Assembly (NCBI RefSeq): GCF_016901835.1
Contig: NZ_JACJKX010000005.1
Location: forward strand, 1 to 64,000
Length of the DNA: 64,000 nt
Direction: 5' to 3'
From: Parasutterella secunda
GTDB taxonomy: Bacteria > Pseudomonadota > Gammaproteobacteria > Burkholderiales > Burkholderiaceae_F
Shown here: one piece after another, positions 1 to 56,307 of the stretch
Layout: every line of letters begins with the position of its first letter
Numbering within the stretch: position 1 is the first letter of the stretch
Notes under the pieces: generated by a model
Databases searched by the model: none
Told to the model about the DNA's origin: nothing
Seen by the model: the letters and a program-made list of their open reading frames with translations, nothing else
Program-made: the position numbers and the translations under genes

Positions 1-4238
<4,238 letters not shown>

Positions 4239-6362: not shown

Positions 6363-6552
6363 GTATTCAGAGTCGACACTGTAAGAAGTGTTACCTGTAC
6401 TTTTCAGGTTGTATTTCTGAGTGGTCAAAAACAAAGATGATGCGCGAACTTGTACTGAGTTTGACATAAATTCAATTAAATCAATACAGTTGATAGGGTA
6501 GGAGTTACGTGTGACTTACATCCAACACTTCCGTTAATGTCCTGCCCTGTAC

Positions 6553-6588
6553 CAAACAATCGCCTGATGGTCGCTTAACTATTGTTTG
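6553..6588. repeat. 8-bp inverted repeat in the gap after the DUF262 gene
   Basis: CAAACAAT (6553-6560) and ATTGTTTG (6581-6588) are perfect inverted copies 20 bp apart. The roughly 290-bp gap 6363-6654 shows no coding frame; this repeat and the hairpin at 6626-6650 are its only structures. Function unknown. Confidence 0.35.
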
Positions 6589-6625
6589 ATTGTCAACTTT
6601 GTTCGGTTTAACAAATTCGACTGAA

Positions 6626-6650
6626 TGAAATTCTCTATCGCAGAATTTCA
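6626..6650 (-). terminator. Hairpin after the HD-domain gene, probable terminator
   Basis: TGAAATTCT and AGAATTTCA pair over 9 bp around a 7-nt loop. It starts 4 nt beyond the HD-domain stop on the minus strand and also lies downstream of the converging DUF262 gene. There is no proper U-tract in either direction, so termination efficiency is uncertain; it may mainly protect the 3' end. Confidence 0.45.
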
Positions 6651-6654
6651 AGTT

Positions 6655-10740: not shown

Positions 10741-10873
10741 TAGGGGAGGAACAATACATCGCCATTTTGTTTTCTAGTCAAAAGGATGATTTTTTGGGGG
10801 TTAAATTTTCCCAATTCCCTCTGTATGATAAGGGTGTTTTTTTAATGCTCACGCTTTGAAAAAAGGATACGAG

Positions 10874-37727: not shown

Positions 37728-38777
37728 TTAACAGATTCTGGGCAGCTGCTCACCGTTTAACCAATCAACGCTTCTGCGGCCACCCAGAAGCGTTTTCATT
37801 TCAACAAAACCGGCATTTTCTTGTGTGACTTCTCCGATAATGGCTGCATCGCGACCGTGAGGGTGCACTTTCATGATGCGCAAAACCTTCTGTGCATCAT
37901 TGGGGTTACAGATCACGATGACTTTGCCTTCGTTGGCGACAAAAAGAGGATCGAGCCCTAAAAATTCACAGGCGGCAGCAACCGAAGGTTTAACGGGAAT
38001 GGATTCTTCGTTCAGAAAAATCCCGACACCGCTTTGATGGGCAATTTCGTTAAGCGTTGCTGCCAATCCGCCTCGAGTCGGATCACGTAAGACATGAATG
38101 TCGGGGACTGCTGACAACACTTTTTCAATCAGATCATTTAAGGGGGCGGTGTCACTTTCAATTTCTGTTAAAAAGGACATGTTTTCCCGTTTGGACAAAA
38201 TGGCTGTTCCGTGGTCACCCATGGATCCCGAAATCAAAATCACATCTCCCGGCCGAGCATTCTTACCGGAAATCGGGAAATCCGTTATTTTTTCTCCGAT
38301 TCCGGTCGTTGAGATATAAATGCCATCGCTGTGACCTTTTTCGACCACTTTGGTGTCACCGGTGACGATGGCAACGTGTGACTCTTTCGCACTTTTTGCC
38401 ATCGACTCAACGATTTTGTTGAGATCGCTCAAAGCAAAGCCTTCTTCAAGGATGAAACTCGCAGCAATGTATAAGGGTTTGGCACCACACATTGCTACAT
38501 CATTGACCGTGCCGCAAACTGCGAGTCGCCCGATGTCTCCGCCTGGGAAAAATAAGGGTGAGATCACATGCGCATCGCACGAAACGGCTATAGGTCGTTT
38601 CATGGGCGGGAGAACCGCACCGTCGTGTCCCTCATCGAGCCAATCATTGGTGAAGTGGCGTGCGAAAATTTCTTCAATTAATTGGGCACTCGCGAGGCCG
38701 CCCGCACCGTGAGTCATTTCGATGCGGCCGCCTTTCAGATCGAGATGGCGAACGTAGCTGGGTTTAATGGATGACAT
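37728..38777 (-). CDS. hypE: Hydrogenase maturation protein HypE (carbamoyl dehydratase)
   Basis: Last gene of the minus-strand hyp arm, 349 residues. HypE receives a carbamoyl group from HypF on its C-terminal cysteine and dehydrates it to the thiocyanate that becomes the CN ligand of the NiFe centre. The C-terminus ends in PRIC, the essential motif. The N-terminal MTHGAGG and the AIR-synthase-like fold segments (GDTKVVEKG, RDPTRGGLAATLNE) are intact. AAGGA precedes the ATG at 38777; longer frames upstream lack a site. Confidence 0.96.
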   Translation of the reverse strand: MSSIKPSYVRHLDLKGGRIEMTHGAGGLASAQLIEEIFARHFTNDWLDEGHDGAVLPPMKRPIAVSCDAHVISPLFFPGGDIGRLAVCGTVNDVAMCGAKPLYIAASFILEEGFALSDLNKIVESMAKSAKESHVAIVTGDTKVVEKGHSDGIYISTTGIGEKITDFPISGKNARPGDVILISGSMGDHGTAILSKRENMSFLTEIESDTAPLNDLIEKVLSAVPDIHVLRDPTRGGLAATLNEIAHQSGVGIFLNEESIPVKPSVAAACEFLGLDPLFVANEGKVIVICNPNDAQKVLRIMKVHPHGRDAAIIGEVTQENAGFVEMKTLLGGRRSVDWLNGEQLPRIC

Positions 38778-38788
38778 TTGAATCCTTC

Positions 38789-39928
38789 TTACTTTGTTGT
38801 TTTTTGAACTCCGGAACCTTTGGGTGCATAACGCCAGTAGGCCGCGCATGCCCCTTCAGAGCTGACCATGCAAGCGCCCATCGGGTGAGCAGGCGTGCAA
38901 ACCGTACCGAAAAGCTTGCAGTCTCGGGGTTCTTTTTCTCCTCGTAAAATCGCCCCGCATGCGCATGCCTTGTTGTCCGGGCTGTGAAGTTCGGGCATAT
39001 TGAAACGCTTTTCAGCATCGAAGTCTTGAAATTCGTCGGCAAGTTTCAGCGCAGAAAATGGCACTTGTCCTAATCCTCGCCATTCAAACGACTTCCGAAG
39101 TGTGAAAACGTCTTTCATCAACTTTTTGGCGATTAAATTACCTTCAGGGCTTACCGCTCTTGTGAATTCATTTTCCACACAGTGACGCTTTTCGTTGGTT
39201 TGTTTAATCAGCATCAAAATGGCAAGAAGCATATCAATGGGTTCGAATCCGGCGATCACAACAGGCTTTTCCCAATTTTTGGCAAAGCCTTCATAGGCAT
39301 TTGAGCCGATGATAGTCGAAACATGAGCCGGACCCACCAGCCCGTCTAAAAGGCCCGCCGGAGAGTTCTTCGAAGCACTCTTGAGAATATGCTCCATGGC
39401 AGCGGGCGTGAGCACGTGATTGACGAAAACAGAAAAATTCTTAAGTCCCAAATTTTTTGCCGTTTTCACCGCAACGGCAGTGGGCGGAGTCGTGGTCTCA
39501 AATCCGATTGCAAAAAAGACGACCTGCCGGTCGGGATTGTTTTTTGCCAGATTTAAGGCGTCCATGGGAGAGTAAACCATGCGTACATCCCCTCCGAGAG
39601 CGCGGCAATTAAAAAGCGACAGCCCTTTGGAGGTGGGCACACGCAAGGTATCGGCATAAGTACAAAGGATCACTTTTTCGGTTAATGCCAAGTTGATCGC
39701 CATCTCGATTCGCCCGACCGGTAAAACACAAACCGGACAGCCCGGCCCATGAATCATTTTGACATTTGGGGGCAGCAAGTCAGTCAGTCCCCAACGCGAC
39801 AGTACATGGGTGTGACCACCGCAAAATTCCATGAAACGGTAGGAGCGGTCGGTGCGGGTTTGGCGGGCAATTTCCTCGCTTAGGGCAGCGGCCTTTTCCC
39901 GGTCACGGTATTCCGTTACGTATTGCAT
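38789..39928 (-). CDS. hypD: Hydrogenase maturation protein HypD
   Basis: Iron-sulfur protein of 379 residues on which, with HypC, the Fe(CN)2CO unit is assembled. EFCGGHTH near 34-41, HGPGCPVCVLP (about 60-70), and the C-terminal cysteines (NKACACGAIL, CKLFGTVCTPAHPMGACM) for the [4Fe-4S] cluster are present. Start overlaps the hypC stop (TAATG). Confidence 0.96.
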   Translation of the reverse strand: MQYVTEYRDREKAAALSEEIARQTRTDRSYRFMEFCGGHTHVLSRWGLTDLLPPNVKMIHGPGCPVCVLPVGRIEMAINLALTEKVILCTYADTLRVPTSKGLSLFNCRALGGDVRMVYSPMDALNLAKNNPDRQVVFFAIGFETTTPPTAVAVKTAKNLGLKNFSVFVNHVLTPAAMEHILKSASKNSPAGLLDGLVGPAHVSTIIGSNAYEGFAKNWEKPVVIAGFEPIDMLLAILMLIKQTNEKRHCVENEFTRAVSPEGNLIAKKLMKDVFTLRKSFEWRGLGQVPFSALKLADEFQDFDAEKRFNMPELHSPDNKACACGAILRGEKEPRDCKLFGTVCTPAHPMGACMVSSEGACAAYWRYAPKGSGVQKTTK

Positions 39929-40170
39929 TACATGAACTCCGCCTCTTTTTTTCCCTCGGCTGCAATACTTTTGAGTAACTCCTGGGTTTGGCGGGCTTGA
40001 GCCGAATCAATACGATTCAGTGCAAAACCCACATGAACGATAACCCAATCGCCTGCAGCGGGATTTTCAATTAACGAAACGTTGACCTCTTTTTCTATGC
40101 CATTGAAATCGCACAGAGCATTTTCACTGTCAATTAATTTGATGATTTTTGCCGGTACAGCCAAACACAT
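39928..40170 (-). CDS. hypC: Hydrogenase assembly chaperone HypC
   Basis: Small OB-fold chaperone of 80 residues. The essential N-terminal MCLAVP is present, and its cysteine binds iron after loss of Met1. It partners with HypD and then with the large subunit precursor. The ATG at 40170 is chosen because it gives this N-terminus. A second HypC relative, hoxL, is on the other arm. Confidence 0.95.
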   Translation of the reverse strand: MCLAVPAKIIKLIDSENALCDFNGIEKEVNVSLIENPAAGDWVIVHVGFALNRIDSAQARQTQELLKSIAAEGKKEAEFM

Positions 40171-40193
40171 AGTCTTTTTCCGATGAAACGTGT

Positions 40194-42530
40194 TCAACGG
40201 TCTCCTTCAAAAATAAATTGATCGGCCTGAGCTTCTAGTGCAAGATGCGCCAACCACACCTGCCCTAACGCCAGTCCTCCGTCTCCGGCGGGGACCTTCT
40301 GCGGGTAGTAGCTTTCCATGTTTTGTGCGTGTAACTCATTGACCAAACAAGCCGTCAGGATACGATTGGCCATGCAGCCGCCCGTTAAAGCGATAGGACC
40401 CCTGTAATCCGTTTGTCGGCAGGCTCTGAGCGTCAATTGCACCAAGCCACATGCCAGTGTCGCATGAAAGTCGGCCGCCCATTGCGAAACGCTTTGGGTG
40501 TCAAGCGAGCTGTGCGCACAGACTATTTTGTCTAAAAAAGGTAGCAGGTTCAGTTGCCCGCCTTTAATCTCAAAACCGTCGCGATGCACATGAGGCACAG
40601 CTTTGTAGGCCGTACTTTCCAACAGCATGGCCGCACGGGCTTCATCGTGTTGGATGTCGCACAACCCCAAAAGTGCACTGAGTGCATCAAAAAGTCTGCC
40701 AACTGACGAGCTCGCAGGCGAGAGTTTGCAATTCGTGACGAGCGAACCGAAGTGTGCAGCGTTGGGCAGGGTGGGGAAAAATTTTTCAATGAGAGACTCT
40801 TTTTTAAGAAGAGTCAAGACCGAAGCGCCCATGCGGCGAGGTTCGTGTGCGGCGATGTCGCCGCCCGGAAGCGGCAAGGGTAAAAGCGTTCCCCAACGTT
40901 CAAAGCCGGTTCTTTTCACCATGAGTAGCTCCCCACCCCAAATTTCTTTACCGGGACCCAGTCCGACGCCGTCAAGCGCAAGGCCGAGTGTGGGCTCTTT
41001 ACGGTTGAGCTCCGCCATGGCTACCCCAATATGCGCAGCATGATGGTAAATGGAGAAAAACTTGGCATGAGTTTCATCAGCGAGCTTGGCAGCATAACGG
41101 GTGCTGAAAAAGTCCGGATGCGCATCGGAGACCACAACTTGTGGTTTAATCTCATAGAGGTGGGCAAGATGAGAAGCAGCCTCTCGGTATGCTTCAGTGG
41201 TTTGGGTATTTTCTAAGTCTCCGATATGTTGGGTTAAAAAGACATCCTCATCTCGTGTGAGCGCAGCCGTGTTTTTCAGATAGGCACCTGCGGCAAAAGT
41301 GGGCTCAATTGCTTGGTCAAACTTGATGGCTTCGGGTGCGTAGCCGCGCGATCGTCGGATGAAGATCGGCTTCTCGCCCACCATACGGACAACGGAATCA
41401 TCACAGCGAGTGAGAATATCACGGTTATGAAGAAGGAAGAAATCGGCAATCCCTGACAGTTTCTCCAAGGCCTCATCATTGCCGATGACCAGAGGTTCAC
41501 CCGAGCGGTTAGCCGAGGTCATCACAAGCATTTCATTTAAGCACAATGATTCGGTCCACTGAGCACCATCGGGTTTACCTGCCAATGAATGAAAAAGCAG
41601 CCAATGCACAGGTGTATAAGGCAACATAATGCCGATGTCGGATAAGCCATCGGCAATGCCCGGTAAATCAATGTTTGCTTTTTTGGGTAAAAGAACAATC
41701 GGTCTGGCAACACTTTCGAGGATTGAGCGTGCAGCTTCACTGATTTCTGCGTAAAGTGCGGCACTTTTTGCATTGGCCATCATAACCGCAAGCGCTTTCT
41801 CATCGCGCCCTTTCCGTTGTCTCAGTTCAGCAACGGCTTGCGGATTACGGGCATCACACACAAGGTGAAAGCCCCCCAAACCTTTGACCGCGACAATTTT
41901 CCCTGCACGGATCGCATCAATTGTCAGATCGATCGGGTCGCCTTCAATCGCTTCGCCTCGTGCGTTTTCAAAGCAAAGTTCAGGACCGCAAACCGGACAA
42001 GCATTGGGTTGAGCGTGAAAGCGTCGATCCAAGGGGTCTGTATATTCCTTTTGACACTGCGGGCACATTTTAAAAGGTGCCATAGTGGTCTGCGGCCGAT
42101 CGTAGGGCAGGTGTTTGGTAATCGTAAAGCGCGGACCGCAGTGGGTGCAGTTGGTAAAGGCGTAACGGTAACGGCGGTTGCCGGGCGTAAACATGTCTTC
42201 GAGACAAGCCTTACACGTGGCAGCATCAGCCGTGATAGCCGTTTTGACTTTACCTTCCTGACTTTCGGTAATGGTGAAGTCTGTGTAGCCTTTAACCGGT
42301 GTATCCGACATGTGTATGTAGTCAATACGGGCCAGAGGCGGTTTACCTTGACGCATGGCTTCGGGAAAAGCTAATACTTGGTTGTCTTCACCTTCGAGTA
42401 CCACCCCGACTCCTTCAGCATCGTTAAATACTTCGCCATTGAGTCCGAGTTCTCTGGCGATGCGATAGACCGTCGGTCGAAAACCGACTCCTTGAACCAA
42501 TCCGTTAATACGGAAAAATTTTGCGATCAT
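40194..42530 (-). CDS. hypF: Carbamoyltransferase HypF
   Basis: Multidomain enzyme of 778 residues that turns carbamoyl phosphate and ATP into carbamoyl-AMP and loads HypE. In order: acylphosphatase domain (NGLVQGVGFRPTVYRIA), two zinc fingers (CKACLEDM...CTHCGPRF, CPQCQKEY...CPVCG), a YrdC-like domain with the KGLGGFHLVCDA loop, and a Kae1/TobZ-like C-terminal domain with HHAAH (about 500) and TGGCMANRIL. All parts are intact. Confidence 0.96.
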   Translation of the reverse strand: MIAKFFRINGLVQGVGFRPTVYRIARELGLNGEVFNDAEGVGVVLEGEDNQVLAFPEAMRQGKPPLARIDYIHMSDTPVKGYTDFTITESQEGKVKTAITADAATCKACLEDMFTPGNRRYRYAFTNCTHCGPRFTITKHLPYDRPQTTMAPFKMCPQCQKEYTDPLDRRFHAQPNACPVCGPELCFENARGEAIEGDPIDLTIDAIRAGKIVAVKGLGGFHLVCDARNPQAVAELRQRKGRDEKALAVMMANAKSAALYAEISEAARSILESVARPIVLLPKKANIDLPGIADGLSDIGIMLPYTPVHWLLFHSLAGKPDGAQWTESLCLNEMLVMTSANRSGEPLVIGNDEALEKLSGIADFFLLHNRDILTRCDDSVVRMVGEKPIFIRRSRGYAPEAIKFDQAIEPTFAAGAYLKNTAALTRDEDVFLTQHIGDLENTQTTEAYREAASHLAHLYEIKPQVVVSDAHPDFFSTRYAAKLADETHAKFFSIYHHAAHIGVAMAELNRKEPTLGLALDGVGLGPGKEIWGGELLMVKRTGFERWGTLLPLPLPGGDIAAHEPRRMGASVLTLLKKESLIEKFFPTLPNAAHFGSLVTNCKLSPASSSVGRLFDALSALLGLCDIQHDEARAAMLLESTAYKAVPHVHRDGFEIKGGQLNLLPFLDKIVCAHSSLDTQSVSQWAADFHATLACGLVQLTLRACRQTDYRGPIALTGGCMANRILTACLVNELHAQNMESYYPQKVPAGDGGLALGQVWLAHLALEAQADQFIFEGDR

Positions 42531-42542
42531 GGCTTTTTCCCG

Positions 42543-43352
42543 TTATAGGCTGGCCAAGGTTTTTTGAGCTTCAAGCCACGTGATCCATTTATCGAGCCCA
42601 TCGCCTTTGGTTGAGGAAACTCTGAGAATCCGAATTTTCGGGTTGACTCGCCGGGCATATTCTTCACAGGCTTCGATATTGAAGTTGACGTAGTCAAGAA
42701 GATCGACCTTATTGATGATCATCACGTCGGACGCTCTGAACATGTCGGGGTATTTGAGCGGTTTGTCTTCGCCTTCGGTTACCGAGAGAATGACTACCTT
42801 ATGGGCTTCGCCGAGATCAAATTCGGCAGGGCAGACGAGATTGCCTACGTTTTCAATAAAGAGCACTGAGTTATCGGACAGCTGCATATGGCCGAGTGCG
42901 TGACGAACCTGTTCGGCATCAAGGTGACAGCCCTTACCCGTATTGATCTGATGGGCTTGAACACCAGTAGCCCGAACCCGCTCGGCATCATTGCTGGTTT
43001 GTTGGTCGCCTTCAATGACACTGATGGTGAGTTTCTCACCGGCAGCTTTAATCGTTGCACAAAGTAGCTCTGTCTTGCCCGAGCCGGGACTGGAGACAAA
43101 ATTCAGGGCGAGGATATGCTTTTGTCGGAAATAGTCACGGTTTTCATTGGCCACCGCATTGTTGCGTGACAAGATGTCTTCTTCAATCGCAATGGCGCGT
43201 TCGGTGCCGACAGCCGCATCGTGAGAGTGCAAGTCCGACTCTCCGTGCTGATGTTCATGATGCTCGTGCGTGTGCGTGATGAGATTGCCGTTTTCATCGA
43301 CGTGCGTATGAGTATGAGGGTGGTTGCCGCCGCAACCGCATGTCGTACACAT
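42543..43352 (-). CDS. hypB: Nickel-incorporating GTPase HypB
   Basis: GTPase of 269 residues that delivers nickel to the hydrogenase with HypA. It begins with MCTTCGCGG (CxxCGC nickel site) and continues with a histidine-rich stretch (more than ten His in the first 45 residues) that can store nickel. The GTPase domain has SSPGSGKTEL, ENVGNLVCPAEFDLG and NKVDLLD. Two adjacent ATG codons exist; the second, at 43352, has AGGAG seven bases before it. Confidence 0.95.
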   Translation of the reverse strand: MCTTCGCGGNHPHTHTHVDENGNLITHTHEHHEHQHGESDLHSHDAAVGTERAIAIEEDILSRNNAVANENRDYFRQKHILALNFVSSPGSGKTELLCATIKAAGEKLTISVIEGDQQTSNDAERVRATGVQAHQINTGKGCHLDAEQVRHALGHMQLSDNSVLFIENVGNLVCPAEFDLGEAHKVVILSVTEGEDKPLKYPDMFRASDVMIINKVDLLDYVNFNIEACEEYARRVNPKIRILRVSSTKGDGLDKWITWLEAQKTLASL

Positions 43353-43386
43353 CATTGAACTCCTTATTCTCAACTAATTATTCGTT

Positions 43387-43731
43387 TTAGTCATCGGCCA
43401 CAATGTCAATGACTTTCAATTCAGTTCCGCCGGTGGCTGTCAGGTGATATCCGCCGCAGTGTGGACAAGCTTCTCCGTAGCGTTTTAAGGGCACTTCAAG
43501 TGAACAGTCCATGCACCAGGCTTTGCCGGGTGGCCTGTCAATAACGAGTTCGGCACCTTGAGCACAACCGTTTTGCGTGACGGATTGCCAGGCAAAGCGC
43601 AGACTTTCAATATCAACTCCGGCAAGCTCACCGACAGCGATGCGCACGCTTTTTACTCGGTTGACATGGTTAGCCTGTGCCGTTCGTTGCACAATCTCGA
43701 TGATGCCTTCGGCAATGGATAATTCGTGCAT
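43387..43731 (-). CDS. hypA: Hydrogenase nickel metallochaperone HypA
   Basis: Protein of 114 residues with the N-terminal nickel site MHELS and a zinc finger formed by CMDC and CPHC. It hands nickel to the large subunit with HypB. The ATG at 43731 is fixed by the MHE N-terminus and overlaps the hoxV stop (ATGA). Confidence 0.95.
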   Translation of the reverse strand: MHELSIAEGIIEIVQRTAQANHVNRVKSVRIAVGELAGVDIESLRFAWQSVTQNGCAQGAELVIDRPPGKAWCMDCSLEVPLKRYGEACPHCGGYHLTATGGTELKVIDIVADD

Positions 43732-44801
43732 CAGACCTCCTTTTGAGGCCACTGAACGGTCACGCGGGTACAAGGATCAAAGGCGCAGGCTATGAGGTTA
43801 ATACCGGTCACAATTGACTTCACGGCTCCGATTCTTTTATTGGCGTAGCGGTTCATGACTTCGACCATCGGACTTTCTTCCTGAAAAGCCCATTCAGTGG
43901 GGGCTACGATGTGGTACTGCATTTGTCCGCTTTCAAAGCGAAGAAAATGCATGAGTGTTCCGCGAGCGGTTTCAACGACTCCAGCCCCCCAACCCTGCTC
44001 CAAAGAATAGCTCTCAATGGTAAAGGCCGGTAGCAGACCTGAGGCGTAGTTCTTTAGCTCTTCAAGTCTTGCCAGCACCAGGTCCCTGACCCGAAAATCA
44101 TTGCGTCTTCCTTGATTTTGTACGCTTCTGATCCGAGCCAAGGCTCCGGGAATACGAGCCCCTGCCCACTGAGGAGAAACTGCCCAATCAGGATAGTCCT
44201 GAAGGATGTTTACGAAAAGCTTCAAAATTTCTTTTTTATGAATCTCTTCAGGAAAAAGAAGTGCTTGACCGCTCATAGGCATGTCATCGAACCGTTCAAA
44301 TGTGTGTTTGATGGCATTGATGGCAATTTTTTCACGTGCAAACCACAAGATGACAAGCGCTTTAAGGTCGGCTAAAAAGTTCTCTAAAGCGACATTATCT
44401 TGAGTCGGTGACTTCGATAGCTCCCAAAGTCTGCCTCGGAGCTCTCCGATTGTTCGAAGACTCTCCGGGCTCACTTTCCCGTGAATGGTAAAGGGCTGTA
44501 AATCCATGCTCAGTACGCGGATCGTTTCAAGAACAGCCTCGGCGGTGATCAGTTTGTTGCGATTACTTAAATTTTTGATAGTTTGACCGGTGGCAGCTTC
44601 TCGGGCAGCTTCAAATGCACAAACCTGAGCAATGGGACAAAGCCCCAGTAGCGATCGAAGAATGTCAGGTGCTTTGTCTGCTCCCAGAGATTGAACGGTT
44701 TTCGAAATAACCGTAGTCCGGTGGTTATGCAGATCAACCTGCAGGGCATGATTTTTTTCTTTAACGAGTAAAGACACTGAGGTCAAATCGGGGCTATGCA
44801 A
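43731..44801 (-). CDS. hoxV: HupK/HoxV-type hydrogenase assembly scaffold (degenerate large-subunit paralogue)
   Basis: Protein of 356 residues resembling a shrunken hydrogenase large subunit. GLCPIAQVCAFEAA (about 53-66) stands where the large subunit has RICGVCTGIHAL, and DPCTRVTVQ near the C-terminus stands where it has DPCLACATH, so only one cysteine of each CxxC pair region remains clearly placed. In R. eutropha HoxV carries the Fe(CN)2CO unit from HypCD to the large subunit. It lies between hoxT and hypA, as in that organism. The name is based on this pattern and position. Confidence 0.8.
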   Translation of the reverse strand: MHSPDLTSVSLLVKEKNHALQVDLHNHRTTVISKTVQSLGADKAPDILRSLLGLCPIAQVCAFEAAREAATGQTIKNLSNRNKLITAEAVLETIRVLSMDLQPFTIHGKVSPESLRTIGELRGRLWELSKSPTQDNVALENFLADLKALVILWFAREKIAINAIKHTFERFDDMPMSGQALLFPEEIHKKEILKLFVNILQDYPDWAVSPQWAGARIPGALARIRSVQNQGRRNDFRVRDLVLARLEELKNYASGLLPAFTIESYSLEQGWGAGVVETARGTLMHFLRFESGQMQYHIVAPTEWAFQEESPMVEVMNRYANKRIGAVKSIVTGINLIACAFDPCTRVTVQWPQKEV

Positions 44802-44802
44802 T

Positions 44803-45303
44803 TTACTTCACCTCCTTTGGTACGGGGCTGAAGAAATCTCGTCGAGACAGAGATTGCGGCAGACTTGCCGGTTTGATTTTCTCCTTTTCAGAAAGCTCCG
44901 AAGAGGTACTGAGCATTAGGTTAAGTGCCCGGGCAGCAAAATTCTCAGCCGCTCTTTGGTTATAAAGAGGATCGACCGGGCTCATCAGCGAACAGGATAA
45001 AAAAGACCCCAGGCGCTCACTTTTCATGCCAAGAAAACTGAATTGCCCAGCTGGAAGGGTAACAGGAGCAATTTTCCCTTCCAAAATGTCAGGCCACGTT
45101 GAATACTCGCCCCGGGCAAGCACGACCAAAATTGACCAAGGAGTCACTAACGCTCCGATCCAGTGTTTCCTATACGGCTGAAAGTCAATAGCCCTCACCT
45201 GCAATCGGTTGTTGCAGATGGGCAGACTCTTCATGTGCTGGTTATAAATTCGGGTAAATTCGGCCTCGAATTCACCGGCCGGGCAATGATTACGGTCAAG
45301 CAC
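44803..45303 (-). CDS. hoxT: HybE/HupJ/HoxT-family hydrogenase assembly protein
   Basis: Protein of 166 residues of the HybE/HupJ/HoxT family, chaperones for export-coupled assembly of [NiFe]-hydrogenases, thought to protect the enzyme from oxygen in the HoxT case. The family core is visible: RIYNQHMKSLPICN, VRAIDFQPYRKHWIGALVTP and LPAGQFSFLG. The start is GTG at 45303 with GAGG five bases before it. First gene of the leftward hoxT-V-hypABFCDE arm; 1 base separates it from hoxV. Confidence 0.82.
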   Translation of the reverse strand: MLDRNHCPAGEFEAEFTRIYNQHMKSLPICNNRLQVRAIDFQPYRKHWIGALVTPWSILVVLARGEYSTWPDILEGKIAPVTLPAGQFSFLGMKSERLGSFLSCSLMSPVDPLYNQRAAENFAARALNLMLSTSSELSEKEKIKPASLPQSLSRRDFFSPVPKEVK

Positions 45304-45350
45304 AACAACCTCTTAAAAAAGCTTTTTTTCAGACTACTCTGAATTAACTT

Positions 45351-45364
45351 TAAATAGTGATCAA
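45351..45364. promoter_or_regulatory. Possible FNR/CRP-family site in the divergent hydrogenase region
   Basis: TAAATAGTGATCAA matches the FNR consensus TTGAT-N4-ATCAA at eight of ten positions. It lies about 45 bp downstream of the predicted leftward promoter. A single weak match; oxygen control of the locus would make sense but is unproven. Confidence 0.3.
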
Positions 45365-45407
45365 AACCGTACCGATTCGGACATATTTCAAGAAGATTTT
45401 GAAAAAT

Positions 45408-45435
45408 CGTATAAAAATAAAAGAAAATATAACAA
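45408..45435 (-). promoter_or_regulatory. Predicted leftward promoter for hoxTV-hypABFCDE
   Basis: On the minus strand TTGTTA and TATACG are 16 bp apart. The -35 box ends one base from the -35 of the rightward promoter, a back-to-back pair. The leader to hoxT is about 100 nt. Confidence 0.4.
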
Positions 45436-45436
45436 A

Positions 45437-45465
45437 TTGAGCAAAACATACCCCTTTGGTGTAAT
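45437..45465 (+). promoter_or_regulatory. Predicted rightward promoter for hoxKGZMLOQR
   Basis: TTGAGC (45437-45442) and TGTAAT (45460-45465, five of six matches) with an ideal 17-bp spacer. Transcription would start near 45472, leaving a 125-nt leader before hoxK. Confidence 0.55.
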
Positions 45466-45479
45466 AAAACACTGCGTTT

Positions 45480-45549
45480 GCCTGTAAGTGTTGGACTTTT
45501 CGTGTCATACAATCTAATCAAGGACGAGAGAACGTCTTACTTAGCAGGC
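45480..45549 (+). promoter_or_regulatory. Long-range stem in the hoxK leader
   Basis: GCCTGTAAGT (45480-45489) can pair with ACTTAGCAGGC (45539-45549) over ten base pairs with one bulged G. It lies within the predicted 5' leader, ending 34 bases before the AGGAG of hoxK. Role unknown. Confidence 0.35.
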
Positions 45550-45596
45550 CTTTTTGTTTGAATCATGGCAGGCGAAAGGCTAAGGAGAACCCCTTT

Positions 45597-46694
45597 ATGT
45601 ATGAAACTCAATATGAAGCGTTGCGACGCCAAGGAGTCAGCCGCCGCAGCTTTTTGCAATTTTGCTCACTGACGGCTGCCAGTTTGGGTTTGGGCAGCGC
45701 CGGCGCTCAGGAAATTGCCCAGGCCATTGAAACGAAGCCGAGAATGCCAGTGGTTTGGCTTCACGGTTTGGAATGCACGTGTTGCACGGAATCGTTTATC
45801 CGTTCCTATCATCCTGTAGCCAAAGACTTGGTTTTGTCGATGATCTCTCTTGACTACGATGATACGATTATGGCAGCAGCAGGCCATCAGGCAGAGGCAG
45901 CGCTCGAAGAGACAATCACTAAGTACAAGGGCAATTACATCTTGGCCGTAGAAGGCAATGTGCCTTTGAATGAAGACGGCATCAATTGCATTCCTGCGGG
46001 AGAAACTTTCCTGCAAAAGATTAAACACGTAGCAGCCGGTGCAAAAGCCGTGATCGGTTGGGGCTCTTGTGCGGCCTGGGGATGCGTGCAGGCTGCCAAA
46101 CCCAATCCCACGCATTCAGTCCCTATTACAGAAATTATTACGGATAAGCCCATTGTGTTGGTGCCCGGTTGTCCGCCGATTCCTGAAGTGATGACGGCCG
46201 TCGTGACTTATATTCTTACTTACGATCGGATTCCGCCTTTGGATCGTTTGGGTCGTCCCAAGATGTTCTACGGGCAGCGCATTCACGATAAGTGCTACCG
46301 CAGAGCGCACTTCGATGCCGGTCAATTTGTCGAAAAATTCGACGATGAGGGTGCCAAACTCGGGTATTGCCTCTACAAGGTCGGCTGCAAAGGTCCGACG
46401 ACATACAATGCTTGCTCCACAATTCGGTGGAACGAAGGTTTGTCTTGGCCGGTGCAGTCCGGTCATGGATGCATCGGTTGCTCTGAACCGAATTTCTTTG
46501 ATAAAGGATCGTTTTACGAACACGAAACGACGATTCTGCCGCCCGGTTTCGGTGGAATTGAATCGACTGTCGATAAGGTGGGCCTGGCCACAGTTGGGGT
46601 GGTCGGCGCCGCAGCTATCGCTCATGCAGCATTGTCAGCTGTCGCTCAAGCGCGAGCCAAAAAGACCAATAAAGATCTCGGGAGGGAAGAATAA
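45597..46694 (+). CDS. hoxK: [NiFe]-hydrogenase small subunit, oxygen-tolerant type (HoxK/HyaA/HupS)
   Basis: Periplasm-facing iron-sulfur subunit, 365 residues as precursor. A Tat signal (RRSFLQF at 16-22) ends at AQA, residue 43, giving a mature start IETKPR. Proximal-cluster cysteines in precursor numbering are 60, 62, 63, 158, 163 and 192, which become 17, 19, 20, 115, 120 and 149 in the mature protein. The extra 19 and 120 are the mark of [4Fe-3S] oxygen-tolerant enzymes. Medial and distal cluster ligands are also present ([28 protein letters not shown]). A C-terminal membrane helix (about 335-355) anchors it. AGGAG precedes the ATG at 45597. Stop overlaps the hoxG ATG. Confidence 0.96.
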
Positions 46695-48460
46695 TGGCAG
46701 ACCGTCGTATTGTTGTTGATCCTGTTACGCGTATTGAAGGTCATCTGCGTGTACAGGCCGTCTTGGGTAATGGCGGCAATGTCATTACGGATTCCCAGAG
46801 TACAGGGACGATGTGGCGTGGGTTGGAAGTGATTCTCAAGGGACGAGACCCGCGTGATGCTTGGGCATTTGTTGAACGTATCTGCGGGGTGTGCACCGGT
46901 ATTCATGCTTTGGCAGCGGTCAGAAGCGTGGAAGACGCAATCGGGATCAAAATTCCGAAAAATGCAAACATCATTCGCAATTTGATGAATGCAACGCTTT
47001 ATACGCATGATCACATTGTTCACTTTTATCAGTTGTCTGCTCTGGACTGGGTGGACGTGGTCAGCTCTTTGTCGGCCGATCCCCGTGAGGTCTCAGAGCT
47101 GCAAAAGAAAATCAGCCCTCATCACCCGCTGAGTTCACCGGGCTACTTCCGCGATGTACAGAATCGTATGAAGAAGTTTGTGGCCTCCGGTCAGTTGGGC
47201 ATTTTTGCCAACGGTTACTGGGGACATCCGGCTATGAAATTGCCCCCTGCCGTGAACCTTTTGGCGGTCACTCACTATTTGGAAGCGTTAGACTTCCAAC
47301 GTGAAATCATCAAAATCCACACGATTTTGGGTGGGAAAAATCCTCATCCGAACTACTTGGTGGGTGGTGTCGCTTGCCCGATTAACATGCACGACTCCGG
47401 TGCCGCAGGCAATATGATCAATGAAGTCACAATGAACTACATGCGTGATATTGCTAAGCAGTCCGTGGAATTTGTTCGCAATGTTTATCTGCCGGATATC
47501 AAAGCCATTGCCTCCTTCTATCCGGAATGGTTCAAATACGGCGGTGGCATCGTCAAAAAGAATGTGCTCTGCTACGGTGATTTCCCTGAAATCGCCAACG
47601 ATTGGTCCGAAAAGTCGCTTCAGATGCCTTCGGGTGCCATCATTGATGGGGATCTTACGCATGTGCACGAAGTGGATTTGCGCGATCCGACGCAAATTCA
47701 GGAATTTGTGGATCATTCCTGGTACAAATACCCGGAAGGTAAACAAGGTCTGCACCCCTGGGAAGGTGTGACGGATCAGGCCTTTGAATTACCTGAAGGA
47801 TCGGTAGGCACGAAGACCAAGTTTGAATGGCTGGGTGAAAAAGGTAAATATTCGTGGATTAAGAGCCCGCGTTGGAAAGGCCACATGATGGAAGTGGGCC
47901 CCCTTGCCCGGCTTATTGTTTCCATTGCCAAGGATGTTAAGCCCTTTAAAGAACCTGCCCTTGAGCTTCTTAAAGAACTCAATTTGCCGCTTGAGGCTGT
48001 TTACTCTACATTGGGTCGCCATGCAGCGCGTGCGTTGGAGTGCGACTGGACAGCCCACAAAATGGTGCAGTATGTCGATGACTTGATTGCCAATATCAAG
48101 TCGGGCGATGAAACGGCAGCCAATATGGAATTGTGGGAACCGAAGACGTGGCCTAAAGAGTGTCGTGGTGTCGGTTTCTGCGAGGCCCCTCGCGGAGCAC
48201 TGGGTCACTGGTGTGTCATTAAGGATACACGTATCGAAAACTGGCAGGCGATTGTTCCGACAACCTGGAATGCCTCGCCCCGTAGCCCCGAAGGACTTCA
48301 AGGAGCCTTTGAAACGTCCTTAATCGGGACGCCGGTTGCCGATCCGCAACGGCCTTTGGAAATCATCCGCACGATTCACAGTTTTGACCCGTGCTTGGCT
48401 TGTGCTACGCACGTTCTGGATCCGCAGGGACACGAGCTTTGCAATGTGCGGGTTCGCTAG
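46694..48460 (+). CDS. hoxG: [NiFe]-hydrogenase large subunit (HoxG/HyaB/HupL)
   Basis: Catalytic subunit of 588 residues that splits H2. The NiFe-binding cysteines lie in RICGVC (C64, C67) and DPCLACATH (C567, C570). HoxM is expected to cut after H573, removing a 15-residue tail that begins VLDPQ. The sequence is full length and intact. It is folded onto HoxK in the cytoplasm and co-exported by the Tat signal of HoxK. Confidence 0.97.
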   Translation: MADRRIVVDPVTRIEGHLRVQAVLGNGGNVITDSQSTGTMWRGLEVILKGRDPRDAWAFVERICGVCTGIHALAAVRSVEDAIGIKIPKNANIIRNLMNATLYTHDHIVHFYQLSALDWVDVVSSLSADPREVSELQKKISPHHPLSSPGYFRDVQNRMKKFVASGQLGIFANGYWGHPAMKLPPAVNLLAVTHYLEALDFQREIIKIHTILGGKNPHPNYLVGGVACPINMHDSGAAGNMINEVTMNYMRDIAKQSVEFVRNVYLPDIKAIASFYPEWFKYGGGIVKKNVLCYGDFPEIANDWSEKSLQMPSGAIIDGDLTHVHEVDLRDPTQIQEFVDHSWYKYPEGKQGLHPWEGVTDQAFELPEGSVGTKTKFEWLGEKGKYSWIKSPRWKGHMMEVGPLARLIVSIAKDVKPFKEPALELLKELNLPLEAVYSTLGRHAARALECDWTAHKMVQYVDDLIANIKSGDETAANMELWEPKTWPKECRGVGFCEAPRGALGHWCVIKDTRIENWQAIVPTTWNASPRSPEGLQGAFETSLIGTPVADPQRPLEIIRTIHSFDPCLACATHVLDPQGHELCNVRVR

Positions 48461-48471
48461 GAGGATCGTTT

Positions 48472-49182
48472 ATGAGAATTGATCCTGTCACTTTTGAAGT
48501 TGATCCGACGGGCGGAACTCACCCCATTTATGTGTGGGAAGCCCCGGTGAGAATTTGGCACTGGGCGATGGCCCTGTGCATGGCGGTAATGATTGTGACC
48601 GGTTTTTTGATCGGAGCCCCCATGGTTGCCAATCTGGGAGATACTTGGTCGACATATGATTTCGGTTATATCCGTTTGGCCCATTTTATTGCCGGCATGA
48701 TTTTTACCGTACTCTTTATCTACCGGATCTTTTGGGCAATTGTCGGTAATCGCTACGCCCGCATGATCTTTATTCCGCCGCTTTGGTCCGTGAAGTGGTG
48801 GAAAGGGGTTATAGCCCAAGTGCTGTACTACCTCTTTATCAAGAAGACGGCACCGGAGTACGCCGGGCACAACCCCTTGGCACAATTAGCTATGTTTGCC
48901 ATGTTTGTGTTGGGCAGTTTTGTGGTGATTATCACGGGCTTTGCTCTTTATGCACAGGCTTGGGGTTGGGATGTCAGCTGGATGGCTTGGTTCGGCTGGG
49001 TCTTTAGTCTCGCAGGCGACGCTCAGACCGTCCGTACAGTCCACCATGCCTGTATGTACGTGTTCATTCTCTTTTCGATTGCCCATATTTACATGTCCTT
49101 TAGAGAGGATGTGATGGGAGGGGCGACGACTCTGTCGTCTATGTCAACCGGCTTGAGAATGTTTAAAGAAACTCATCACTGA
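48472..49182 (+). CDS. hoxZ: Ni/Fe-hydrogenase b-type cytochrome subunit (HoxZ/HyaC)
   Basis: Di-heme membrane protein of 236 residues with four main helices that anchors HoxKG and passes electrons to quinone. Heme-ligand histidines are seen in VRIWHW, RLAHFIAG and TVRTVHHACMY...IAHIYMSF. AGGAGG precedes the ATG 11 bases after the hoxG stop. Presence of this gene shows the enzyme feeds the respiratory chain, that is, H2 uptake. Confidence 0.95.
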   Translation: MRIDPVTFEVDPTGGTHPIYVWEAPVRIWHWAMALCMAVMIVTGFLIGAPMVANLGDTWSTYDFGYIRLAHFIAGMIFTVLFIYRIFWAIVGNRYARMIFIPPLWSVKWWKGVIAQVLYYLFIKKTAPEYAGHNPLAQLAMFAMFVLGSFVVIITGFALYAQAWGWDVSWMAWFGWVFSLAGDAQTVRTVHHACMYVFILFSIAHIYMSFREDVMGGATTLSSMSTGLRMFKETHH

Positions 49183-49203
49183 GACAGCTGTTGATGAGAC
49201 TTG

Positions 49204-49239
49204 GGCTTGAGAAGTTGTCAGTGAGTTGCTTCTCAAGCC
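49204..49239 (+). terminator. Strong intercistronic hairpin between hoxZ and hoxM
   Basis: GGCTTGAGAAG (49204-49214) pairs perfectly with CTTCTCAAGCC (49229-49239), loop 14 nt, followed by the T-rich TCTTTCTT. It may be an attenuator or an mRNA 3'-end stabiliser that raises the level of the structural genes over the assembly genes. Confidence 0.6.
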
Positions 49240-49291
49240 TCTTTCTTGCTCTAGAGCAACCTTTTTGCAGATGCTTGTAGACGGATCTGAG

Positions 49292-49897
49292 ATGCCTAAA
49301 TATGAAGTGCTTGTTATTGGAATCGGCAATATTCTCTGGGCCGATGAAGGATTCGGCGTTAGGGCGGTAGAAGCCTACCATCGTCGCTTTGCCGATGATC
49401 CGGTGGTCAGAGTCATTGACGGAGGGACGTTGGGCGCTTATCTTATCAATGAGGTGATGGAGGCTAAGCGTCTTTTGATTTTTGACTGTTGTGACTTTAA
49501 AGATCAACCGGGCACGCTGAAAGTCTTGAGAAATGAAGAGATCAGGCTTTGGGCATCAACTAAGATTTCGGCCCATCAGGCCGGCATGAATGATGTTCTG
49601 GTTACAGCCTCTTTATCCGGTTATGAGCCGCAAGCCATCACCGTGGTGGGTGTTCAACCTCTGGAGCTTGAAGATTACGGAGGCAGTTTGACCGGCATTG
49701 TCAACGAGCAAATTGAGCCTGCTCTTCAAGCCGCCCAAGAGCAAATGATTGCGTGGGGGTTTGCTCCACGAAAACGAGATGCCTACGAAGAGGTTGTACC
49801 GCTCGGAGAAGCCACACTTGAGCGTACACCTTATGAAGAAGGGCGACCGTCCGAGAACGAGGCTTGTCGCTTTGCAGATGTGCGATTTTTGAAGTAA
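49292..49897 (+). CDS. hoxM: Hydrogenase maturation endopeptidase (HoxM/HyaD/HupD)
   Basis: Nickel-dependent protease of 201 residues that removes the C-terminal tail of HoxG once the NiFe site is complete. GIGNILWADEGFGVRAVE at the start carries the nickel-sensing glutamate; HQAGMNDVL carries the conserved histidine. The ATG at 49292 gives the family N-terminus. The last 40 residues form a charged extension. Confidence 0.93.
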   Translation: MPKYEVLVIGIGNILWADEGFGVRAVEAYHRRFADDPVVRVIDGGTLGAYLINEVMEAKRLLIFDCCDFKDQPGTLKVLRNEEIRLWASTKISAHQAGMNDVLVTASLSGYEPQAITVVGVQPLELEDYGGSLTGIVNEQIEPALQAAQEQMIAWGFAPRKRDAYEEVVPLGEATLERTPYEEGRPSENEACRFADVRFLK

Positions 49898-49926
49898 GTC
49901 TTAACTGCTCGATAGTCGGTGAAGAA

Positions 49927-50268
49927 ATGTGTATAGCGATTCCTAAAAAAGTGATTTCCTTGCATAACACAGCCAGTGGAACCAGTGCCGATGTGCAAGA
50001 CGGCGATCAAGTCGAACGGGTGGATACCTCCTTGATTGAATCCGTTGCGGTGGGTGATTACGTCCTGGTTTTCAGAGGCAACGCCTTGCGTGTCGTTCAG
50101 GCAGAGGAAGCAATGAAAATTCAAGCCGCGCTCAATTGTGTGCAAAAGGTTATGCAAGGACAAGCCGATGAAGCGCAGATAGAGAATAGTTTTGCGGATT
50201 TGCAAAGCGACTCATCCCGATTGCCGCCTCATTTAGCTGCTTTAGTCGGTAAGAAAGTGATTGAATAA
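49927..50268 (+). CDS. hoxL: HypC-like hydrogenase chaperone (HoxL/HupF)
   Basis: Second HypC/HupF relative of 113 residues, starting MCIAIP with the essential cysteine. The C-terminal 40 residues extend beyond normal HypC. In R. eutropha and Rhizobium the HoxL/HupF chaperone guards the large subunit during maturation under oxygen. 29 bases after hoxM. Confidence 0.9.
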   Translation: MCIAIPKKVISLHNTASGTSADVQDGDQVERVDTSLIESVAVGDYVLVFRGNALRVVQAEEAMKIQAALNCVQKVMQGQADEAQIENSFADLQSDSSRLPPHLAALVGKKVIE

Positions 50269-50278
50269 GGAGTTGACA

Positions 50279-50758
50279 ATGCCCAAAGCGTTCAACGCCG
50301 TTACAGCAGAAATCAATCGTTTGGATATAGCCGAGCATCCGGCCTTTAAGCGTCTGTTCGGTCAGGCAGGCTTCAGTCTCATTGATTCATCTCAGTTGGA
50401 GGAATTTCTCAAAATTGAGGGATTGAAGATGCTGGTTTTTGCTGATGATCCCAATGAAAGAAAAACAACCATGGATATGGCGGTGATTGCGCCGGAGCTG
50501 AAAAAAGCTTTCAGCGGGACGCTGGCCGCTACAGCATGGGCTCAATTTAAAGAAGCCCGAAGCATGGCCTCGCGTTGGGGATTGCGCTCGATGCCTGCGG
50601 TGGCTATTTTCCGCGACAGTGATTTTCTCGGTGCAGTTCAAGGGCTCAAGACCTGGAGTGAGTATTGCTCGCTTTTGTCCGAAATTGTCCTTCGGGATAA
50701 ACCTGCTGCGCGCACGATTGCTATCATGCCGGCGCAATCTGCCCGATGTGATGCGTGA
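50279..50758 (+). CDS. hoxO: HyaE/HupG/HoxO-family thioredoxin-fold chaperone
   Basis: Protein of 159 residues of the HyaE/HoxO family, thioredoxin-like but without a CxxC, which binds the Tat signal of the small subunit during cluster assembly. LKMLVFADDP, the helix APELKKAFSG, WGLRSMPAVAIFRD and the C-terminal EIVLR segment match. The ATG at 50279 follows AAGGAG; overlapping upstream frames are ignored. Confidence 0.88.
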   Translation: MPKAFNAVTAEINRLDIAEHPAFKRLFGQAGFSLIDSSQLEEFLKIEGLKMLVFADDPNERKTTMDMAVIAPELKKAFSGTLAATAWAQFKEARSMASRWGLRSMPAVAIFRDSDFLGAVQGLKTWSEYCSLLSEIVLRDKPAARTIAIMPAQSARCDA

Positions 50759-50777
50759 TTGAATTTTGAGGTGAAAA

Positions 50778-51560
50778 ATGACTCAGATGTCATCGAATCG
50801 TTGGATTAATGTCGACTTGGATGCGCAAACGGAGCATGCTGCTGCAGAGGCGACAGTGAAATTTTTGCTAGAAGTGCAAGCGGCGCTTTTTTCGAAAGGT
50901 TCTGAAGAAAACAAGCCTTTATTGACGGTACCGTTTGACCGATTTGATCCCAACCACCTTCAATTTATTTTGGCTACGGTCGGTAGCGGTGAAGTTCGGG
51001 CGACAGTGGGGGATAGTATCCGTCTGGAAGAGACAATGATTGAAGGCCTGTGGCGAATTCAGGAAAACGGAGTCGACCGTTTTGAAGTGGTTTGTGTTCC
51101 TGATGTGCTTTTAAAGAATTTGTCTGATGAATTCTTGACGGTGCCGACTCAGACGCCCGAGGGTGTCTTTGCCGCTTCTGCGATTCTTCAAGAGCTATCA
51201 AGTGCTCAACGGACTGAAGATCTGCAATCACTATCATTTGAACCACCCTATACGGTTGAGATTTCCAGACAACCGTTAAGTCCGGCTGATGGGGAATTTA
51301 TCGAAAAAGTGTTGGGTAAAGGCGTTATCGATATCAGTATTTCCGGTTTTGCCAGAGCTCATATCCAAAGCACAGCCAAAAAAGGCATATGGCGTAATCG
51401 AATCTTCAATAATGCGGGTAAAGCACTTTTTGATGCCTACGTTGTGACGAAGATGCCCCCGGAAGTCGGAGAGTCGATTGAGCAGATGCAATCAGGTGCT
51501 AAGCGTTGCGACGAAATTTTAAGTTGGCTCAAAGAAGATTTGGCTAGCGGTAGACTCTGA
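50778..51560 (+). CDS. hoxQ: HyaF/HupH/HoxQ-family hydrogenase assembly protein
   Basis: Protein of 260 residues of the HupH/HyaF/HoxQ family, found with oxygen-tolerant uptake hydrogenases and linked with small-subunit maturation together with HoxO. LQFILATVGSGEVRATVGDS, IEETMIEGLWRI-like segments and the C-terminal LFDAYVVTKMPPEV are typical of the family. GAGGTG precedes the ATG 19 bases after hoxO. Confidence 0.88.
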   Translation: MTQMSSNRWINVDLDAQTEHAAAEATVKFLLEVQAALFSKGSEENKPLLTVPFDRFDPNHLQFILATVGSGEVRATVGDSIRLEETMIEGLWRIQENGVDRFEVVCVPDVLLKNLSDEFLTVPTQTPEGVFAASAILQELSSAQRTEDLQSLSFEPPYTVEISRQPLSPADGEFIEKVLGKGVIDISISGFARAHIQSTAKKGIWRNRIFNNAGKALFDAYVVTKMPPEVGESIEQMQSGAKRCDEILSWLKEDLASGRL

Positions 51561-51569
51561 GGCGAGTTC

Positions 51570-51803
51570 ATGCCACAAGAAACAATAGATAAAGTATTGG
51601 ATCGGTTGAATCGGGAGCGCATCGGTCCACAAACCAAAATGCAATGTAAGGTCTGTTGGTATGTCTACGATCCTCAAGAGGGTTGTGAAGAATTTGATAT
51701 ACCGCCGGGAACGGCTTTTAATGACTTACCGGACTACTTTACTTGTCCCGGCTGCGGAAATGAAAAGAGCGGCTTTTTGCCGCTCCCTGACAATCAAGGC
51801 TGA
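51570..51803 (+). CDS. hoxR: Hydrogenase-linked rubredoxin (HoxR/HupI)
   Basis: Rubredoxin of 77 residues with a short N-terminal extension. The iron ligands are CKVC (about 26-29) and CPGC (about 60-63), with WYVYDPQEG between. HoxR is required for full oxygen tolerance of the R. eutropha enzyme, supporting the [4Fe-3S] cluster. Last gene of the rightward arm; converges with the MBL gene, stops 6 bases apart. Confidence 0.93.
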   Translation: MPQETIDKVLDRLNRERIGPQTKMQCKVCWYVYDPQEGCEEFDIPPGTAFNDLPDYFTCPGCGNEKSGFLPLPDNQG

Positions 51804-56006: not shown

Positions 56007-56031
56007 GAAAATTTTTCTCGGAGTGCTTTCT

Positions 56032-56307
56032 GTGCGCCAATGTATGGATGCTGACAATCTTCATAAAAGATTGAAAAAAATCATGGGTCAGGTCAATGCT
56101 ATTGATCGGATGATCGATGAGGACGTCCCTTGTGAAAATATTCTTATGCAAGTTAACGCTGCCAAGGGGGCTCTTCACAAAGTCGGTCAAATCATTCTGG
56201 AGGGTCACCTTAATCACTGTGTCAAAGAAGGCATAGAGCACGGTGATGTCGATAAGACAATTCGAGACTTTGCCAAAGCTATTGAACATTTCTCTCGCCT
56301 TTCTTAA
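56032..56307 (+). CDS. CsoR/RcnR-family metal-sensing repressor
   Basis: DUF156 repressor of 91 residues. Metal ligands are C34, H59 and C63 (GHLNHC), the Cys-His-Cys pattern of CsoR-type copper(I) sensors; the RcnR nickel/cobalt N-terminal histidine is absent. A GTG at 56032 with GGAG eight bases before it is preferred; ATG 56044 is a second option. It is followed by a perfect operator-like palindrome and a metal ATPase gene, the usual arrangement. Confidence 0.85.
   Translation: MRQCMDADNLHKRLKKIMGQVNAIDRMIDEDVPCENILMQVNAAKGALHKVGQIILEGHLNHCVKEGIEHGDVDKTIRDFAKAIEHFSRLS

Follow-up and report, generated by a model that had tools for sequence, protein, structure and literature searches.

The hydrogenase locus and its maturation genes

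The window, by which we mean the whole 64,000 nt stretch of DNA analysed, carries a [NiFe]-hydrogenase locus in which hoxKGZMLOQR lie in this order on the plus strand, with hoxT, a hoxV-like gene and hypABFCDE encoded divergently on the minus strand (Table 1). The hoxK frame is uninterrupted from ATG to stop, encodes 365 amino acids, and has AAGGAG directly 5' of its start codon. FNR/ANR-type control of hoxK was considered and rejected, as the best upstream match, TAAATAGTGATCAA (8 of 10 positions), was reached in 139 of 500 single-base shuffles; this match was not seen at the corresponding place in the other rows.

Table 1. Genes of the hydrogenase locus, in window coordinates
Gene	Position	Strand	Product	Remarks
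hoxK	45597..46694	+	Group 1d-type [NiFe]-hydrogenase small subunit	Tat signal; six proximal-cluster cysteines
hoxG	46694..48460	+	Large subunit	Shares its active-site cysteines and canopy with Hyd-1 and HoxG
hoxZ	48472..49182	+	Membrane b-type cytochrome subunit	Start is a chosen in-frame ATG
hoxM	49292..49897	+	HyaD/HybD-type maturation endopeptidase	Start is a chosen in-frame ATG
hoxL	49927..50268	+	HypC-like chaperone	TIGR00074 over cut-off
hoxO/hyaE	50279..50758	+	HyaE-family small-subunit chaperone	PF07449 over cut-off; start is a chosen in-frame ATG
hoxQ/hyaF	50778..51560	+		HupH_C domain, PF04809 over cut-off
hoxR	51570..51803	+	Rubredoxin-like protein, 77 aa	PF00301 over cut-off
hoxT/hybE	44803..45303	-	Assembly chaperone	TIGR03993, 129.9 bits (cut-off 78.5)
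hoxV-like	43731..44801	-		Weak similarity; assigned mainly by position
hypA	43387..43731	-		Start set by family match
hypB	42543..43373	-		His-rich N-terminus
hypF	40194..42530	-		Full length, 778 aa
hypC	39928..40170	-		Start set by family match
hypD	38789..39928	-		
hypE	37728..38777	-		Start is a chosen in-frame ATG

Residues mapped by alignment showed that the active-site cysteines of HoxG (C64, C67, C567 and C570) are conserved, as are all of the residues that we take to form the Hyd-1 active-site canopy (E28, D118, H229, P508, R509 and D574). HoxZ scored 185.7 bits against TIGR02125 (cut-off 121.5), and family models above their cut-offs mark HoxK as a predicted Tat-exported small subunit with a b-type cytochrome partner. 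The hoxR gene begins 9 bases past hoxQ and contains a rubredoxin match at 51636–51776; its product scored 67.3 bits against the Pfam rubredoxin model (cut-off 23), fell under the cut-off of the NCBIfam rubredoxin model, and is 39% identical to pHG1 HoxR over 59 aa. The HoxV-like protein is 23% identical to pHG1 HoxV, with its matches to PF00374 and other families under cut-off. Judged by these assignments, the structural genes are accompanied by the hoxL, hoxO, hoxQ, hoxR and hoxT genes of a C. necator-type aerobic maturation set.

The membrane-bound hydrogenase of C. necator H16 (HoxKGZ, encoded on pHG1; PDB 3RGW and 5MDJ) has the six cysteines of HoxK in common with the window enzyme, with about 70–71% identity in HoxK and 59% in HoxG, and the order hoxKGZMLOQR is common to both loci. 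The two differ in the position of hoxT, hoxV and the hyp genes, which are divergent in the window and downstream in C. necator, and in HypF, which is full length in the window whereas the pHG1 copy is short. The maturation proteins of the window are only 23–61% identical to those of C. necator; HoxL, HoxO, HoxQ, HoxT and HoxV fall at 23–33%, against the about 70% of HoxK. No counterpart of the regulatory-hydrogenase gene of C. necator was found among the ORFs of 37728–51803, and the whole genome from which the window comes contains one hydA-family match. Hydrogenase 1 of E. coli (hyaABCDEF), which like the window enzyme is found in enteric bacteria, has the six cysteines and the canopy residues in common with it, and HyaA and HyaB are 65% and 58% identical to the window subunits. 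The hya locus, in which only hyaABCDEF are annotated, has no annotated hoxL, hoxR, hoxT or hoxV, and it adjoins the cytochrome bd-II genes, whereas the cydAB genes of the window's genome lie on a contig other than that of the hydrogenase.

The layout recurred in the window's genus: in each of the six other contigs fetched, hoxT and hoxK are divergently transcribed and hoxR comes after hoxQ; the hyp run reaches hypE in four of these six, and the remaining two contigs end sooner. Rubredoxin was found in 9/9 genomes of the genus, on a contig other than that of hoxK in two of them (G002 and G003). In Parasutterella muris and the uncultured Sutterella RUG068, hoxT lies after hoxR in the same orientation, unlike the divergent gene of the window. 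Of the named loci, taken from the best 80 of 592 relatives listed, 59 extend 9 kb or more 3' of hoxK; a hoxR match (E 1e-4) was present in 46 of these and absent in 13, Sutterella seckii included. In one member of the window's genus (L144, G005:C18), about 4 kb of extra DNA lies between hoxK (near 7909–9003) and the divergent hoxT (match from 13351).

The presence of hoxR bears on the conditions of assembly. A passage of PMC10583674 reports that C. necator lacking hoxR gives an EPR spectrum resembling that of the C19G variant, and describes this as a first sign that HoxR aids Cys19 binding under aerobic conditions. That hoxR has been retained is thus a second indication that the enzyme is assembled with some oxygen present.

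Six proximal-cluster cysteines in HoxK

The first-pass annotation had placed six cysteines at residues 17, 19, 20, 115, 120 and 149 after Tat cleavage at residue 43, with the same numbers as in C. necator HoxK and E. coli Hyd-1. Our recomputation agrees: the cysteines lie at residues 60, 62, 63, 158, 163 and 192 of the precursor, which give these mature positions on subtraction of 43, and all six are invariant in an alignment of window HoxK, C. necator pHG1 HoxK and E. coli HyaA. Cleavage after residue 43 is suggested by a structure-sequence match in which window residue 44 pairs with residue 1 of mature C. necator HoxK, together with a match of the Tat-signal model TIGR01409 to residues 14–41 (22.8 bits, cut-off 16.7). 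The ligands of the distal cluster, which we take to be His187, Cys190, Cys215 and Cys221, and those of the medial cluster, presumably Cys230, Cys249 and Cys252 along with Pro242, are all present in window HoxK.

All six cysteines occurred in 107 of 128 distinct small-subunit rows (a count that left out one 23-residue fragment), and each of these 107 rows had Pro at mature position 242. The remaining 21 rows (20 CGCCGC and one CGNCGC) were without both Cys19 and Cys120. The six-cysteine pattern is therefore not a chance feature. The cysteines were also complete in 80/80 named loci, the best 80 of 592 relatives listed, a set biased by selection with two peptide patterns covering Cys17, Cys19 and Cys20, and in 30/30 loci of the GTDB family, a set that is likewise biased as the best-scoring of 53 genomes over cut-off, with the nine genus genomes included. 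The window's genus provides an unselected set, in which hoxK was found in 9/9 genomes and the six cysteines in all eight members other than the window.

Class assignment and descent

A search against all solved structures ranked C. necator HoxK first for the window protein (541 bits), followed by 4C3O (514 bits), E. coli Hyd-1 (510 bits) and 3AYX (496 bits); we take 4C3O to be Salmonella Hyd-5 and 3AYX to be the Hydrogenovibrio marinus enzyme. Structures of the six-cysteine type and their variants scored 477–541 bits, some of the top rows being engineered variants of HoxK and Hyd-1, and the first match beyond this type was 3MYR, presumably the Allochromatium vinosum enzyme, at 316 bits.

A quick IQ-TREE phylogeny was built from 68 rows taken from 145 aligned small subunits (144 and the window), matches covering fewer than 200 query residues having been left out. 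The tree separated 64 six-cysteine rows from four outgroup rows, E. coli HybO and three plasmid-borne enzymes, all without Cys19 and Cys120 (SH-aLRT 97, the only support measure used, on a tree whose outgroup branches are very long). The window thus stands among six-cysteine rows of the group 1d type and apart from the outgroups, which bears out the phylogenetic check proposed in the first-pass annotation. Its further assignment of the enzyme to the oxygen-tolerant membrane-bound type is supported by the structure ranking and the tree, and the part of PMC10583674 that concerns C. necator ties Cys19 and Cys120 to oxygen tolerance. Assignment to the oxygen-tolerant-type (group 1d) uptake hydrogenases, as predicted from sequence, is well supported.

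Within the tree the window falls in a 21-row clade (SH-aLRT 99) that also holds its genus and each of the five named rows of Sutterellaceae in the tree. Inside this clade it joins Candidatus Aphodousia faecigallinarum and two further genomes of the genus; P. muris is at the base, and the next row outside is a metagenome-assembled genome named Aquincola. Small subunits of Sutterellaceae among the listed matches were 86% (S. seckii), 78% (Sutterella RUG068) and 73% (P. muris) identical to the window protein, and all three share its clade. Rows of the GTDB family occupy four places in the tree, namely the 21-row clade, an eight-row clade of other genera, a three-row group and a single row. Inside the 21-row clade, hoxK of two members of the window's genus (G006 and G007) is closer to rows of genera g3 and g16 (supports 90–95) than to the other rows of the genus, which hints at exchange among members of the gut clade, or else at proteins too similar for the tree to resolve well. 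With family rows in four places and genus rows mixed with those of two other genera, the tree does not bear out plain vertical descent in all its parts; transfer inside the family or low resolution may account for this. The tree places the origin of the gene inside the Burkholderiales branch of group 1d, from which it may have been inherited or transferred.

Purifying selection within the genus

Between hoxK of the window and that of Candidatus Aphodousia faecigallinarum, 192 of 365 codons are identical; the 173 changed codons comprise 166 silent and seven residue-changing differences. That 166 of 173 changes are silent points to purifying selection on hoxK. In three comparisons within the genus, hoxK dN/dS was 0.010 (against G001) and 0.019 (against G008), and dS was saturated against G007; where computable, dS was 1.55 and 2.44, so that silent sites are near saturation.

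Conservation was strongest in the enzyme itself, with identities to G001 of 98% for HoxK, 96% for HoxG and 94% for HoxZ against 65–85% for the maturation proteins. Across three genus comparisons (37728–51803 against L141, L142 and L143), HoxK was 92–98%, HoxV 29–65% and HoxT 50–65% identical; HoxV evolves so fast that its homology is hard to recognize. Against G001, dS was 1.55–2.05 in hoxKGZ, 2.72 in hypB and saturated in the other maturation genes; given this lower dS in hoxKGZ, part of the conservation may stem from codon bias or from older exchange. Recent transfer of hoxKG between species was rejected as the source of the 98% HoxK identity, as the DNA is only 80–85% identical over hoxK and the portion of hoxG present in the faecigallinarum contig. 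The hydrogenase is very probably in use by its host.

Host genus and habitat

The closest named HoxK among the matches listed was that of Candidatus Aphodousia faecigallinarum (98% identity), whose hoxK is codon-identical to that of the genus genome G002. In all likelihood the window's genus is thus Candidatus Aphodousia, named from chicken faeces (GTDB CAG-521, Burkholderiales), although the genome, at 1.98 Mb and 98% complete, looks like that of a species other than faecigallinarum, given that the two hoxK genes have only 192 of 365 codons identical. In the relevant passages of PMC8035907, Candidatus Aphodousia is described from chicken-gut metagenomes, with figures for four species of 1.5–1.8 Mb and 47–48% GC. 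This kinship supports the intestinal host that the first-pass annotation had supposed; no member of the genus is known to us in culture.

Our searches of the open-licence literature found no publication on an Aphodousia hydrogenase and none pairing CAG-521 with hydrogen, and the search for Sutterella or Sutterellaceae together with hydrogenase gave nothing useful. The one table passage seen in a paper on hydrogen sinks in chickens (PMC10095559) mentions neither Sutterella nor Parasutterella. A study of Sutterella abundance in dogs and cats calls the genus asaccharolytic and nitrate-reducing, and its passages on Sutterella demonstrate nothing about a hydrogenase (PMC6182564). Group 1d hydrogenases in animal guts have already been published, in a paper whose passage on Parasutterella names it as an inferred hydrogenotroph with the hydrogenase group unstated (PMC12911397); microaerobic reductases are treated as general background in part of PMC4257093.

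Electron acceptors in the genus and family

Cytochrome bd subunit I was found in 9/9 genomes of the genus (10/14 known genomes used as controls). Heme-copper oxidase, PF00384 molybdopterin enzymes and NrfA were each found in 0/9, against 8/14, 11/14 (E. coli included) and 1/14 (E. coli) of the control genomes, respectively; five of the nine genus genomes are <90% complete, and the absences hold for all nine. PF00384 also takes in NuoG, so that complex I of the usual type seems to be absent too.

In the window's own genome, PF00890 gave four matches, of which the one strong match is FrdA. The frdA, frdB, aspA (aspartase) and dcu (C4-dicarboxylate transporter) genes form a single gene run (G000:C2, about 99–105 kb; L133 and L140). 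The best models for frdA and frdB were PRK08626 and PRK13552, both of which we take to be of the Wolinella type, and no frdC anchor gene was found adjoining frdAB. The aspartase scored over the cut-off of a subfamily model and just under that of the equivalog TIGR00839. The sole UbiA-family match in the genome is MenA-like (TIGR00751, 123 bits, cut-off 102), which points to menaquinone.

Across the GTDB family (67 genomes of 18 genera), 53 genomes had a small subunit over cut-off and 26 a heme-copper oxidase (COX1): the two occurred together in 16 genomes, the hydrogenase alone in 37 and the oxidase alone in 10, and four genomes had neither. In this tabulation sub-cut-off matches (hydA in G057, COX1 in G013) were scored as absent and partial over-cut-off hydA matches (G013 and G042) as present. 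Of the 41 genomes that lack a COX1 match over cut-off, 37 carry the hydrogenase; of the 26 that have such a match, 16 do. These figures come from related genomes and do not count independent events. On our reading, lineages that gave up high-oxygen respiration have retained the hydrogenase.

A proposed respiratory role

We consider it highly probable that the locus encodes a respiratory, membrane-bound, H2-oxidizing HoxKGZ enzyme of the group 1d type with a Cys6 [4Fe-3S] proximal cluster, passing electrons through menaquinone to fumarate or O2. In the mechanism that we propose, HoxL, HoxO, HoxQ, HoxR, HoxT, HoxV, HoxM and HypABCDEF would mature the enzyme in the cytoplasm, and the HoxKG dimer would exit via the Tat system. 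Gut H2 would be oxidized at the periplasmic face, and the electrons would pass along three Fe-S clusters to the cytochrome b HoxZ and on to menaquinone. When oxygen is absent they would reach fumarate, supplied by aspartase, via FrdAB; in the presence of oxygen traces they would reach O2 via cytochrome bd. Oxygen tolerance would arise from a Cys6 [4Fe-3S] cluster making two redox transitions, of which the C. necator cluster is capable according to a passage of PMC10583674.

The nearest precedent for such acceptor use is E. coli Hyd-1, which is oxygen-tolerant yet induced anaerobically (PMC8177889, in part). Passages of the same paper report that the benefit of Hyd-1 and Hyd-2 in the inflamed mouse gut is lowered, but not abolished, without fumarate reductase, cytochrome bd-II or nitrate reductase, and that fumarate is obtainable from aspartate. 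The first-pass annotation had taken the six cysteines to point to H2 use near the oxic mucosa. Given the E. coli precedent, this does not follow from the cysteines alone, which do not reveal the acceptor. The window's genome has cytochrome bd, but it also has frdAB, aspA and a dcu gene, and transfer from H2 to fumarate fits as well as transfer from H2 to O2. What makes use near the oxic mucosa plausible is the presence of hoxR and cytochrome bd, together with the biopsy enrichment of group 1d genes. In the passages of PMC12578642 concerned, these genes are 2.6-fold enriched in mucosal biopsies and are enriched in Crohn's disease, and according to that paper they probably reflect Enterobacteriaceae.

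The enzyme could instead work essentially only anaerobically, from H2 to fumarate, with the cysteines and the aerobic maturation set as relics of an aerobic ancestor and an oxygen tolerance that is idle today. The run of frdAB with aspA and a dcu gene would suit this account, as would the placement of the clade among Burkholderiales rows, some of which are aerobic hydrogen oxidizers by lifestyle. The anaerobic induction of E. coli Hyd-1 is a further point in its favour (PMC8177889, in part). Relics, however, are expected to erode, and the retention of the extra cysteines, hoxR and cytochrome bd argues against one: Cys19 and Cys120 are kept in all eight other members of the genus despite near-saturated silent sites, hoxR in 6/6 of the other contigs, and cytochrome bd in every one of the nine genomes. 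We regard this account as possible but doubtful.

Less likely still is that the hydrogenase and cytochrome bd act chiefly as an oxygen scavenger that keeps the cell anoxic, with energy gain secondary; of the two oxidase families searched, the genus has cytochrome bd throughout (9/9) and heme-copper oxidase nowhere (0/9), as such a role would have it, but the presence of genes for fumarate reduction suggests a genuine respiratory chain. An oxygen-sensitive standard uptake hydrogenase (of the 1b/1c/1e kind) that carries the extra cysteines by chance is very improbable in view of the structure scores (477–541 against 316 bits), and is contradicted by the small-subunit tree and the operon content.

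Returning to the respiratory role with either acceptor, we tentatively speculate that Aphodousia lives largely by oxidizing H2, with a knallgas-type oxygen-tolerant hydrogenase, acquired from Burkholderiales stock, as its main respiratory donor enzyme feeding menaquinone. The same enzyme might then support fumarate reduction in the lumen and the reduction of trace O2 close to the epithelium, in a chain pared to fumarate reductase and cytochrome bd. As a molecule the hydrogenase is ordinary and of a textbook type; the interest lies in its pairing with the few partner families found. An oxygen-tolerant-type hydrogenase and hoxR have been kept under strong selection despite these few partners, and the short partner list makes the role easy to test. 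The bacterium would offer a simple system for asking whether oxygen-tolerant hydrogenases of the gut help a cell to use oxygen or merely to survive its presence. It also bears on which bacteria account for the mucosal and Crohn's disease group 1d genes described in part of PMC12578642.

Other features of the window

The first 8 kb of the window (1–8000) is AT-rich, with 38% GC. Type I restriction-modification genes (HsdM and HsdR) and a gene for a GmrSD_N-domain protein (HEC-05-like in PADLOC) lie at 70–6362, likely forming a defence island upstream of a cell-wall gene cluster. The 716-aa ORF at 7889–10039 had no Pfam, NCBIfam or PADLOC match at E 0.001. At 53034–54155 is a SLOG/LOG-like Rossmann protein whose family matches are all sub-threshold, followed at 54264–56003 by an OLD-family ATPase/TOPRIM protein, for which the top PADLOC model was GajA (380.9 bits), and at 55936–56307 by a metal-sensitive repressor of the PF02583 family. 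An ADP-forming acyl-CoA synthetase-like fusion is encoded at 10856–12988; its best NCBIfam match was 4-hydroxybutyrate--CoA ligase, at 619 bits and under the cut-off of 1300, and it is a possible route from acyl-CoA to ATP.
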